From Flavobacteriaceae bacterium (GTDB lineage: Bacteria; Bacteroidota; Bacteroidia; Flavobacteriales; Flavobacteriaceae), in NCBI GenBank assembly GCA_023257625.1, contig JALRBW010000058.1, positions 1 to 64,000 on the forward strand: a stretch of DNA of 64,000 nt, given 5' to 3'. Position numbers and translations under genes: made by a program. Below the pieces are notes generated by a model. The model saw only the letters and a list, made by a program, of their open reading frames with translations. It was not told the origin of the DNA and ran no database searches. The first letter of the stretch is position 1, and each line of letters opens with the position of its first letter. Below, in pieces: positions 16,334 to 20,162 of the stretch.

Positions 16334-17047
16334 GTGCGAATTGACTTAAATATTTCTGGAATGACCTGCGAAAACTGTAAAAAGTACGTAACAGATCATC
16401 TTAATGCACTGCCAGAGGTAAATTCTGCTATCGTAGATTTAGTTAAAGGCCAAGCTAACTTAGAAGTCTCAACTTCAATTCAAATTGAAAAAATCCAAAA
16501 AACGCTAGGTTTAAAATATTCAGTTTCAATAAGATCAGAAAAAGTAGAAGGTTCTAAGATTCAATCCCCTACTAAACTTAAGTCCTTATTTCCTCTATTT
16601 CTCGTTTTTGTTTATTTGATCTTGGGCACTCTCATGTTGCATCTTATTGCTCCATCTACTTTTAATACCACCATGCATCGTTTTATGGGGCTATTTTTTA
16701 TCACTTTCAGTTTTTTTAAATTTTTAGATTTTAACGGTTTTGCTCCTTCTTTTGCACGCTACGATCCTTTGGCTAGTAAGAGTTTGCTTTATGCAAATGC
16801 ATATCCTTTTTTAGAAACTGCTTTAGGTGTTGCCTTTCTTTTAGAATGGCAATTAATTCCTGTTTTAGTAGTCACTATTTTTGTCTTATCAATCACCACT
16901 TTTGGTGTTCTTAATGCTTTACTAAAGAAAAATCAAATCCAATGTGCCTGTCTTGGTACAGCATTAAAATTACCCATGACTGAAGCAACATTAATTGAAA
17001 ACGGAATTATGATTATAATGAGCTGTATTTCACTGGTAGCATTTTAA
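16334..17047 (+). CDS. HMA metal-binding domain fused to MauE/DoxX-like membrane domain
   Basis: N-terminal heavy-metal-associated domain (residues 1-70) with the canonical MTCENC motif (Cys12, Cys15), joined to four membrane helices (about 87-235) of the MauE/DoxX type. A CxC pair (Cys204, Cys206; CACLG) lies just before the last helix. The start is GTG, the only in-frame option that keeps the HMA domain whole; the overlapping ATG at 16332 is out of frame and stops at once. It opens a four-gene cassette with an HYC_CC_PP protein, a TonB-dependent receptor and a periplasmic HMA protein. Probably passes a soft metal, such as copper, at the inner membrane; the metal is inferred. Confidence 0.85.
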   Translation: MRIDLNISGMTCENCKKYVTDHLNALPEVNSAIVDLVKGQANLEVSTSIQIEKIQKTLGLKYSVSIRSEKVEGSKIQSPTKLKSLFPLFLVFVYLILGTLMLHLIAPSTFNTTMHRFMGLFFITFSFFKFLDFNGFAPSFARYDPLASKSLLYANAYPFLETALGVAFLLEWQLIPVLVVTIFVLSITTFGVLNALLKKNQIQCACLGTALKLPMTEATLIENGIMIIMSCISLVAF

Positions 17048-17059
17048 GTTTAAAAAACG

Positions 17060-17067
17060 TATATTTG
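17060..17067 (+). promoter_or_regulatory. -7 promoter box before the HYC_CC_PP gene
   Basis: TATATTTG is an exact match to TAnnTTTG and ends four bases before the ATG. A matching -33 TTG was not seen at 17-23 bp. Transcription would begin at about the A of the start codon, suggesting a leaderless message for the second to fourth genes of the metal cassette. Confidence 0.4.
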
Positions 17068-17071
17068 CGCC

Positions 17072-17485
17072 ATGAAAAGTAAACGATTTTTTAGCCTTAT
17101 TCTCGCTCTCCTCGTCTTTGGGACCCGAGTAGGCTTTGCGTTGAATATTCATTACTGTGATCAAGAAATTGCATCTATTTCATTAGCAAACAATCCCATT
17201 GATTGTGGCATGCAAGGCGAAACTAGAAACCAGGGTGAGGGTATAAAAGTTTCTAAATCTTTATGCTGTAAAGATCAAGTTACGCTGTTTCAAAATCATG
17301 AACCGCAAAAAATCGATACGGTTACCAAAATTCAATGCGTAACAGAAAAATTGTTTGCAGTCTCAATTGCTTCAGTTGAACTGGAAGCTTTTTTAATGCC
17401 CTCAATCAAAACAAATTGGAGCCCTCCTCCAAGGTCTAAAAAAAATCTTTTTACCCTTTATCACAGTTTTATTTTTTATGGTTAA
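17072..17485 (+). CDS. Secreted HYC_CC_PP-type cysteine-rich protein
   Basis: Exported 137-residue protein: hydrophobic signal (residues 5-24), then the three family marks, HYC (27-29), CC (65-66) and PPP (about 117-119), plus Cys45 and a later single Cys. This pattern defines the HYC_CC_PP family, small Bacteroidota proteins of unproven function that occur beside TonB receptors and HMA proteins. The paired cysteines and histidine suggest soft-metal binding in the periplasm. It stands 24 bp after the HMA-MauE gene, with its own -7 box, and 47 bp before the receptor. Confidence 0.8.
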   Translation: MKSKRFFSLILALLVFGTRVGFALNIHYCDQEIASISLANNPIDCGMQGETRNQGEGIKVSKSLCCKDQVTLFQNHEPQKIDTVTKIQCVTEKLFAVSIASVELEAFLMPSIKTNWSPPPRSKKNLFTLYHSFIFYG

Positions 17486-17532
17486 TAAGTGGATAAACTA
17501 GTATCCTATTTTTAACCTAAACAAATAAAATA

Positions 17533-19767
17533 ATGAAAATATTAAAAACATTTTATACCCTAGTATTCGGTTTTTTTACTCTTATCCTTTATAGCCAAGA
17601 AGCTTTAGAGGGTGAAATTTTAACAAAACAAGGAACTTCTACTATCCCTCTAGAAGGAGCTAGTATTTTTTGGATCAATACCCAACAGGGAACAGTTTCT
17701 GATAATAAGGGTAAATTTAAGATTCCATTTTCATCTGAAACCAATCGATTAGTGATTAGCTATATTGGTTTTAAGACAGACACACTTACAATAATACAAA
17801 GTTATATTTCTCATTTAATGGTTTCCTCAGAAGCAGAATCATTAGATGAAGTTACCCTAACACAACGTCGTAAGGCCATTCAAAAATCATACTTTGAAGC
17901 TCAAAATATAATGACAGTCAATAGTGCAGAATTACTTAAAGCCGCATGTTGTAATTTGTCTGAAAGTTTTGAAACAAATCCCTCTATCGATGTAAACTTT
18001 TCTGATGCTCTTACAGGAACTAAGCAAATTAAAATGCTTGGTCTAACAAGCCCTTACCTCTTAATTAGTGAAGAAAATATACCTATGGTTAGAGGGGCCT
18101 CACAAGCGTATGGTTTAACTTTTACCCCTGGTACATGGATTGAAAGTATTCAAATTACAAAGGGTACAGGAAGTGTAGTCAATGGATTTGAAAGTATTGC
18201 AGGTCAAATCAATACGGAAATAAAAAAACCTTTTACCGATGTTCCTTTTTTTGTTAATTTATTTACTTCTGCTAATGGGCGACAAGAAGCCAATGTGCAG
18301 GGAAACAAAAAGTGGAATGATCGCTGGAGTTCAGGACTATTTATTCATGCCAATCAAAGAACTCAAGAAATGGATCAGAATTCGGATGGATTTTTAGATC
18401 TTCCATTGTCTAAACAAGTCAATTTCCAAAACAGATGGCAGTATCTAAATGCTGAAAAAGGATGGGTAGGATTTGCAACGGTTCGCTGGCTCGATGACCA
18501 AAAGCAAATTGGATCAAAGGGATTCAATCCTAAATCAACTTCGAATAGTTCACCTTTATGGGGAAGTGAAATACAAACGCAAAGATGGGATGGATCTTTA
18601 AAAATAGGATATGTATTTCCTGAAACACCTTACAAAAGTTTTGGATTTCAATCTGCTTATAGCGACCATAATCAAGAGGCCTTTTATGGAAATCGAAGGT
18701 ATAATATTGATCATGAAAGTGCTTATGCCAATATGTTGTATAATTCAATTATAGGTAATACAAAAAATAAATTCAAAGCGGGTATAAATTTTTCCTATGA
18801 TCGGTATTTTGAAAAGGTAGATCAATTTCAGTTTGATCGTATAGATCGTTCAATGGGAAGTTTTTTTGAATACAGTTATGATAACTTAGAAAACTTTAAT
18901 TTAGTTGCTGGGGGTCGATTAGATATTCATAATCAATTAGGAACTTTTTTCACCCCAAGACTACATCTTCGTTATACACCATTAGAAAAAACAATTCTTA
19001 GGGCTTCAGTGGGAAGTGGTAGAAAAGCGGCAAATATATTTGCAGAGAATCAGATATTGTTTGGTACAAATAGAATTATTAGTATAATTGATAATGGAGG
19101 ATCGATTTATGGTTTAGACCCTGAAAAAGCCTGGAATTATGGATTAAGTCTACGTCAAATCTTTACTATAGGAAAAGGTTCGGGTGATGTGACATTAGAC
19201 TATTACAGTACTCGATTTGATAATCAAGTCGTGGTAGATTGGGAACAACGAGGTAAAATTTTGTTTTATAATTTAGAAGGTGAAAGTGTAGCAAATAGTT
19301 TTCAATTAGGGGTTGATTATGCTCCAACTGAACGAACAAGCTTTCGGTTTGCCTACAAAAATTATGATGTTAAAACCCAATACAATTCGGGGTACTTACA
19401 ACGTCCTCTTCAAGCACAACACATATTCTTTGGAAATTTTGGTTGGGAAACGGAACGAAACTCAAAAGGAGCCCAATGGCGTTGGGATTTAACCTACCAT
19501 GCCCTAGGGAAACAGCGTTTAGTGACTACAATACGTGATGCACAGGGGAGCTATGCTCCTAGTTATGGGTTGTGGAATAGTCAAATTACAAAAGCTTTTA
19601 CAAATTCCTTAGAACTTTACGCTGGTATTGAAAATGCTGCAGACTACAGACAAGAAAACCCCATCATTGGATCTAATGATCCTTTTGGGATAGATTTTGA
19701 TACAGCACAAGTATATGCTCCCATTTTTGGAAGAATGCTTTATGCAGGATTTAGATGGAATTTATAA
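17533..19767 (+). CDS. TonB-dependent outer-membrane receptor of the metal cassette
   Basis: Outer-membrane receptor of 744 residues: signal peptide (1-22), carboxypeptidase-regulatory-like beta domain (24-105), plug (about 115-230) and a 22-strand-type barrel ending in an aromatic strand (AGFRWNL). A vicinal cysteine pair (Cys139-Cys140, in KAACCNLSESFE) sits at the entry of the plug, unusual for siderophore or glycan receptors but seen in receptors adjoining HMA proteins. Neighbours on both sides are HMA or cysteine-pair proteins, so a metal or metallophore substrate is likely. No SusD partner is present, which argues against glycan uptake. Confidence 0.9.
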   Translation: MKILKTFYTLVFGFFTLILYSQEALEGEILTKQGTSTIPLEGASIFWINTQQGTVSDNKGKFKIPFSSETNRLVISYIGFKTDTLTIIQSYISHLMVSSEAESLDEVTLTQRRKAIQKSYFEAQNIMTVNSAELLKAACCNLSESFETNPSIDVNFSDALTGTKQIKMLGLTSPYLLISEENIPMVRGASQAYGLTFTPGTWIESIQITKGTGSVVNGFESIAGQINTEIKKPFTDVPFFVNLFTSANGRQEANVQGNKKWNDRWSSGLFIHANQRTQEMDQNSDGFLDLPLSKQVNFQNRWQYLNAEKGWVGFATVRWLDDQKQIGSKGFNPKSTSNSSPLWGSEIQTQRWDGSLKIGYVFPETPYKSFGFQSAYSDHNQEAFYGNRRYNIDHESAYANMLYNSIIGNTKNKFKAGINFSYDRYFEKVDQFQFDRIDRSMGSFFEYSYDNLENFNLVAGGRLDIHNQLGTFFTPRLHLRYTPLEKTILRASVGSGRKAANIFAENQILFGTNRIISIIDNGGSIYGLDPEKAWNYGLSLRQIFTIGKGSGDVTLDYYSTRFDNQVVVDWEQRGKILFYNLEGESVANSFQLGVDYAPTERTSFRFAYKNYDVKTQYNSGYLQRPLQAQHIFFGNFGWETERNSKGAQWRWDLTYHALGKQRLVTTIRDAQGSYAPSYGLWNSQITKAFTNSLELYAGIENAADYRQENPIIGSNDPFGIDFDTAQVYAPIFGRMLYAGFRWNL

Positions 19768-19783
19768 CTTTAAAAAAAAAAAA

Positions 19784-20128
19784 ATGAAAAAAATAATTGT
19801 ACTTATTTTAATGATTTTACCATTATTGGTAGGAGCTCAAGAGTCTAAAGATAAAAACACTAAAGCTAATTTTTTAGTCAAAGGGAATTGTGAAATGTGT
19901 AAAAAGCGAATTGAAAAAGCAGCACTCTCAGTAAAAGGCATTAAAATGGCAACTTGGGACATACCTTCTAATGTAATTTCAATTATTTATGATCCAAATA
20001 AAACACCATTAGAAGAAATTCATAATACTATTGCAAGTGTGGGACATGATACAGCATTAAGTAAAGCAGATGATGATGTATACAACGCACTTCCAATGTG
20101 TTGTCTTTACGATAGAGAACAAGAATAA
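19784..20128 (+). CDS. Periplasmic heavy-metal-associated (HMA) protein
   Basis: Exported 114-residue protein with a signal peptide (1-18) and one HMA fold. The metal loop is GNCEMC (Cys36, Cys39), and a second vicinal pair, MCC (Cys106-Cys107), closes the protein. The frame is open upstream into the receptor gene, but the ATG chosen follows an A-rich ribosome-binding region and gives the signal peptide. It lies 16 bp after the receptor and is followed by a rho-independent terminator, so it ends the operon. Likely accepts metal imported by the receptor. Confidence 0.88.
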   Translation: MKKIIVLILMILPLLVGAQESKDKNTKANFLVKGNCEMCKKRIEKAALSVKGIKMATWDIPSNVISIIYDPNKTPLEEIHNTIASVGHDTALSKADDDVYNALPMCCLYDREQE

Positions 20129-20135
20129 AATGTGA

Positions 20136-20162
20136 AGCGATCTCAAGGGGTCGCTTTTTTAT
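20136..20162 (+). terminator. Rho-independent terminator of the metal cassette
   Basis: Seven-base stem AGCGATC / GGTCGCT (one G-T pair) with a six-base loop, then a run of T. It starts eight bases after the HMA stop codon. Confidence 0.75.

Follow-up and report, generated by a model that had tools for sequence, protein, structure and literature searches.

A probable copper-acquisition operon of Bacteroidota with a HYC_CC_PP gene as candidate metal-sensing leader

A 64,000-nucleotide stretch of Flavobacteriaceae DNA (GenBank assembly GCA_023257625.1, contig JALRBW010000058.1, positions 1 to 64,000 of the forward strand; the window in what follows) carries four consecutive genes whose products all contain cysteine pairs, and we read them, with rather more confidence than doubt, as a copper-acquisition operon of Bacteroidota. 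In this operon, a TonB-dependent receptor with vicinal cysteines would pass metal to a small exported HMA protein, an HMA-MauE protein would be an optional partner, and a HYC_CC_PP gene followed by an RNA hairpin would be a metal-sensing leader. The window belongs to a 1.93-Mb draft genome of 75 contigs, and the nearest named relatives of its receptor come from marine Flavobacteriaceae metagenome-assembled genomes.

The four genes, called A to D here, all lie on the forward strand. Gene A (16334 to 17047; GTG start, 237 amino acids) encodes the HMA-MauE protein, which has a CxxC motif (CENC, residues 12 and 15) and a CAC motif (residues 204 and 206) and exceeds the Pfam cut-offs for both HMA (46.1 bits) and MauE (57.5 bits). 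Gene B (17072 to 17485; 137 amino acids) encodes a small protein with a hydrophobic N terminus, which predicts export, and belongs to NCBIfam NF047658, HYC_CC_PP (63.4 bits against a cut-off of 28), a family whose name states no function and which was not named in any paper found in our literature search. Its motifs are HYC (residues 27 to 29, codons 17150 to 17158), CC (residues 65 and 66, codons 17264 to 17269), and PPP (residues 118 to 120, codons 17423 to 17431), and further cysteines are C45 and C89. Gene C (17533 to 19767; 744 amino acids) encodes the receptor, in which Pfam recognizes CarbopepD_reg_2, plug, and barrel domains and whose only two cysteines, C139 and C140, stand side by side at the start of the plug (codons 17947 to 17952). 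Gene D (19784 to 20128; 114 amino acids; Pfam HMA 32.2 bits, over the cut-off) encodes the small exported HMA protein, with CxxC (CEMC, residues 36 and 39) and a C-terminal CC (residues 106 and 107, codons 20099 to 20104). The ATG at 19784 is the likely start of D; a TTG start at 19697 would overlap the receptor gene. A terminator-like hairpin seen in a consensus scan only (20134 to 20157) closes the cluster. The original prediction, made from the letters of the window, had described these four genes, their cysteine motifs, and the closing hairpin; all open reading frames (ORFs) were confirmed, and the Pfam and NCBIfam families agree.

Relatives of the cluster were collected at the family level as 81 receptor loci, other genera included; loci, these and further ones, carry L-numbers here. 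C and D are adjacent in 80 of them, and B was found upstream of the receptor in 73 by profile search. In a first tally, which predates the profile rescue of B leaders missed by the pattern search, the gene orders were BCD (39 loci), BACD (25), ABCD (3, window included), and BCDA (2).

The stronger new element of the locus is B, whose features fit a metal-sensing leader better than a carrier. Across 88 relatives, C29, C45, C65, C66, and P120 are invariant, and H27 and P119 are kept in at least 90%. The distance from CC to PP is mostly 52 to 54 residues and that from PP to the stop codon mostly 14 to 15; the distance from HxC to CC varies from 28 to 40. The gene is not confined to receptor operons. 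Among 20 other loci, 19 have it as the first gene, directly before that of a CusA-type efflux pump. The gap after it is long, with medians of 85 and 107 nucleotides, compared to 13 and 18 nucleotides elsewhere. Furthermore, 75 of 86 leaders end in TGA, a stop codon used by 164 of 1182 other genes, and this preference falls within a conserved ATTTGAT box.

A predicted RNA hairpin in the window (17461 to 17536) reaches from the end of B and its stop codon (TAA, 17483 to 17485) to the receptor's ATG at 17533. Its minimum free energy is −20.4 kcal/mol (z −3.91), none of 200 dinucleotide shuffles folds as well, and close relatives have comparable hairpins. More generally, the gap after the leader folds with a mean z of −1.88, compared to −0.57 for other gaps, the controls for this score being first-order Markov resamples and not exact shuffles. 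The region of the leader stop pairs with the stretch that precedes the next start codon (median of 17.3 expected pairs compared to 1.5); at least 5 such pairs are expected in 84% of 86 loci but in 32% of 110 controls, and a repeat in further loci gave 93% of 54 compared to 38% of 100 controls. Because the 3′ arms align poorly, we compared matched with mismatched arms in place of a covariation count. Matched arms pair better than arms swapped between loci (p 3e-12) and better than their own shuffled or resampled sequence (p 4e-12), a test that carries no information for the window itself, whose 47-nucleotide gap cuts the arms short. The hairpins of four relatives' leader loci matched no known RNA family in an Rfam search. 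We also considered an intrinsic terminator and do not favor it; the 3′ arm runs up to the start codon, with A-rich sequence behind it.

These features have to be weighed against the possibility that HYC_CC_PP is a stable, CusF-like periplasmic metallochaperone serving import and export alike, with the hairpin merely setting mRNA stability or the relative translation of the cistrons. Four invariant cysteines and a near-invariant histidine behind an export signal would suit such a protein, some HYC_CC_PP homologs do without the PP, and the constant C-terminal region could reflect constraint on the protein. Nevertheless, we consider a chaperone unlikely, since it leaves the strict first-gene place before CusA, the long gap, and the stop-to-start hairpin without an obvious reason, since the TGA preference sits within a conserved nucleotide box, and since no confident fold is predicted for B. 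Sensing of the metal, which the original prediction had mentioned in passing as an option beside transport, is the better account of this gene by virtue of leader position, spacing, and hairpin.

The receptor is the second pillar of our interpretation. Both C139 and C140 are kept in 81/81 orthologs of the family, and such invariance is more than chance; no homologous receptor without the pair was found in this gene context. The pair is also present in 20 of 20 loci sampled across the phylum, with the signature KAACC or QSACC, and in none of 20 receptor-like control ORFs of the same family, 17 of which show the plug region of a 25 to 28% identical paralog, where a CxxC lies at another position. 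The orthologous group itself spans 44 to 72% identity and is sharply separated from the paralogs at about 25 to 28%. Under the threshold used, 89 of 296 phylum genomes have a receptor match, some of the weaker of which may be paralogs. COX1 is present in 283 of the 296, so a receptor-oxidase correlation carries no information. The AlphaFold2 model of the receptor has a confident barrel (predicted local distance difference test [pLDDT] 84) and low confidence at residues 138 to 171, with values below 50 around the CC. Foldseek returned the generic fold of TonB-dependent transporters, and the solved structures nearest by sequence match only the N-terminal CarbopepD domain of SusC-type proteins, beside weak barrel matches. 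A second receptor family of Flavobacteriaceae (L114-L131 and L133) offers a separate candidate thiol site, a CxxC that is conserved in its plug as NCNVCNTGDIHINGLEG or a variant of it.

The partner of the receptor CC is probably D. The CxxC and C-terminal CC of D are kept in 80/80 receptor-linked copies, and in several families the two usually neighboring genes are fused: the N terminus of the receptor carries two D-type domains, each ending in CCxYxR or similar, in L179-L182 and one such domain in L183-L185, and Pfam recognizes HMA in these fused domains. The fusions are good evidence that D would work at the periplasmic side of the receptor, where the plug entry and the CC are located, and together with the near-constant adjacency of C and D and the invariance of the cysteines they give good support to a hand-off from receptor to D, in which metal itself may be transferred from thiol to thiol. 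In L179-L182, a different cysteine-rich, small, exported ORF lies about 11 to 106 nucleotides upstream of the fused receptor ORF; it ends in IWQPPKI[GA], and its PP stands three residues from the stop codon, like that of CruR, a leader protein discussed below.

Does the chain continue to the cytoplasm? A is an optional inner-membrane component. Its CxxC and CAC are invariant in 29/29 relatives, and it lies upstream of the receptor in the same number of the 81 loci. It is missing upstream in the other 52, in 8 of which a CopA-type ATPase occupies the slot between B and C; A and CopA never occur together. The original prediction had seen a complete outer-to-inner thiol relay carrying a soft metal inward, from the receptor CC to HYC_CC_PP and D in the periplasm and on to HMA-MauE in the inner membrane. 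In its favor, all cysteine pairs are invariant, C-D fusion genes exist, and A shares the operon in one third of the loci. However, the pairs of the other proteins stay invariant where A is missing or, in 8 loci, B is missing, B also heads CusA efflux operons, and a carrier protein does not explain the RNA-level constraint on B's last codons and the gap that follows. The step from receptor to D is retained, whereas a relay through all four proteins seems improbable to us. Nor do the CC pairs occur only where HYC_CC_PP and HMA-MauE genes are linked to them, which the original prediction had proposed as a test: the receptor CC is present in the 8 loci without B, and the C-terminal CC of D in 11/11 homologs from Cus operons without the receptor.

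The metal is likely copper, or copper and silver, as judged from the proteins encoded with B. The resistance-nodulation-division pump of the HYC-headed operons scores 645 bits to E. coli CusA compared to 397 bits to ZneA, and alignment to CusA shows conservation of the positions M573, M623, and M672, which we take to be its metal-handling methionines; by pattern, all three are present in 16 of 19 pumps. Consistent with this, the ATPase in the slot between B and C has a copper ATPase (3rfu) as its best solved match. Of the soft-metal system originally predicted, then, a soft metal, most likely copper, is upheld. P-type ATPase genes also lie just upstream of the HYC-CusA operon in L134, L135, L136, L140, L141, and L150, that of L135 being of the Zn/Cd type. 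Such a Zn/Cd-type ATPase beside some clusters, a weak resemblance of the HMA domains of A and D to the MerP and MerTP models, and the fact that CusA-type pumps also take silver could be held to favor detoxification or sensing of another soft metal (silver, mercury, zinc, or cadmium) over copper acquisition. We give this little credence, since the methionine triad of CusA and the CopA ATPase point to monovalent copper or silver, leaders with Cys motifs of the CutF and CruR type mostly precede copper genes (PMC9973294), and a metal that is only toxic would hardly call for a TonB-dependent receptor.

In our model, the receptor would import copper, free or chelated, across the outer membrane, and from the vicinal cysteines at the plug entry the metal, probably Cu(I), would pass to the CxxC and C-terminal CC of periplasmic D, with A, or in some genera a CopA-type ATPase in its stead, as an optional inner-membrane partner. 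B would not carry metal; its translation may report the metal and control the next gene via the hairpin, in the manner of CutF and CruR. A ribosome that pauses at the prolines, a candidate slow or arrest site about 45 to 51 nucleotides before the stop, would allow the hairpin to form and cover the next start, whereas ribosomes running to the stop would unfold the 5′ arm of the hairpin. Binding of metal by the Cys motifs as they emerge may shift the balance between pausing and run-through. The copper responses of CutF and CruR have opposite signs, and HYC_CC_PP stands before genes for uptake as well as for efflux; the sign of its response may therefore differ from operon to operon. It is quite possible, and we put it forward more tentatively than the reading of the operon, that HYC_CC_PP proteins are nascent-chain copper sensors with a stop-to-start hairpin throughout the phylum Bacteroidota, placed before opposite machines: TonB-dependent uptake through a vicinal-Cys plug, with the HMA acceptor either docked or fused, and CusCBA efflux.

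Several observations speak against this interpretation. The PP is not universal: L072 and L104 have a single proline, and distant leaders, for example those of L183, L191, L197, and L198, have none. No B is found upstream in 8 of the 81 receptor loci, 6 of which extend 1.9 kb or more upstream, and in the window A precedes B, so that B is not the head of all four genes. The AlphaFold2 model of B is weak (pLDDT 66) and gave no significant fold match, and in the receptor model, with its low-confidence plug around the CC, no metal site was seen. The PP lies about 15 to 17 residues before the stop, compared to 3 in CruR. Finally, DUF2946 (PF11162) matched neither B of the window (Pfam, expectation values up to 0.1) nor three relatives of B (up to 1), nor anything else in the window's genome. 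Because of the missing DUF2946 match, HYC_CC_PP is not filed as a member of the CutF/CruR family; it resembles one in layout.

Some observations concern the surroundings of the cluster. In many loci, it is flanked by purH and GAF/exosortase genes at one end and by groL/groES at the opposite end, and owing to these shared flanks it looks vertically inherited. In L144, L145, L148, L152, and L153, HYC-headed CusABC-type genes occupy the site between purH/GAF/exosortase and groL instead of the receptor operon (one member of the CusA cluster was not recognized in L153). Thioredoxin-fold, AhpC/TSA-like genes near the receptor (L184:7076-7561 and L195:10928-11503) could keep thiols reduced. The receptor loci L080, L081, L088, L091, L098, L099, and L107 have as a neighbor a small lipoprotein-like gene, whose product is conserved in one region (YKQYCPMAF...GDKMLKCG).

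To our knowledge, copper uptake across the Gram-negative outer membrane is poorly known, and the copper receptors known to us are proteobacterial. The locus offers a widespread candidate from Bacteroidota with a precise putative thiol hand-off, from the plug CC to the HMA acceptor, and the HYC_CC_PP family, so far of unknown function, gains a concrete hypothesis: sensing of metal during translation, coupled to an RNA switch, in both uptake and efflux.

How does this system compare with known ones? OprC, the copper receptor of Pseudomonas aeruginosa, shares the fold of TonB-dependent receptors and is one of the many Foldseek matches of C. However, the CxxxM motif of its CxxxM-HxM metal site is absent from C, in which N-L-S-E comes after C139-C140, and TIGR01778, the model for OprC, was not among the NCBIfam matches of the window proteins. 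The closest likeness in regulation is to leader proteins, and the type is already known in kind: a survey of CutF-like leaders lists many from Bacteroidota, and the genes often found next to such leaders overall include TonB-like and CusABC genes (PMC9973294). CutF of Rhodobacter capsulatus, reported to be undetectable as a protein in cells, has in common with HYC_CC_PP its small size and export, the Cys metal motif, prolines near the C terminus, and a stem-loop that lies between the leader stop and the next start, which for CutF is that of cutO (PMC9973294). HYC_CC_PP is nevertheless a different sequence family, heading receptor and Cus operons alike, and its PP is mostly outside the last 15 residues in which the survey filter demanded it (PMC9973294), so most members would be left out. 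RAPP/RGPP leaders before copper genes are reported to be absent from Bacteroidota (PMC12992588), and HYC_CC_PP does not use RAPP.

CruR heads the copper-repressed operon of a TonB-dependent transporter, bfrG/CrtA, in Bordetella pertussis (PMC9426467, PMC12914433). It is likewise a small exported Cys-motif protein with a C-terminal PP, a conserved spacing between Cys and Pro, and a long gap behind it, and it stands upstream of a copper receptor as B stands before C, where copper would likewise be the metal. CruR, however, acts through Rho termination, while HYC_CC_PP is followed by a stop-to-start hairpin; the downstream partner in the CruR operon is PepSY_TM, and here it is the HMA protein D; and the receptor described here, unlike the CruR-linked one, has the vicinal CC and a CarbopepD domain in front. 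CusCBA-CusF copper efflux, finally, is the second home of HYC_CC_PP, and D-like HMA and HMA-MauE proteins occur there too. That system exports copper, whereas the one proposed here would take it up through a receptor, and the small Cys protein at its head would be the product of a leader gene and not CusF.

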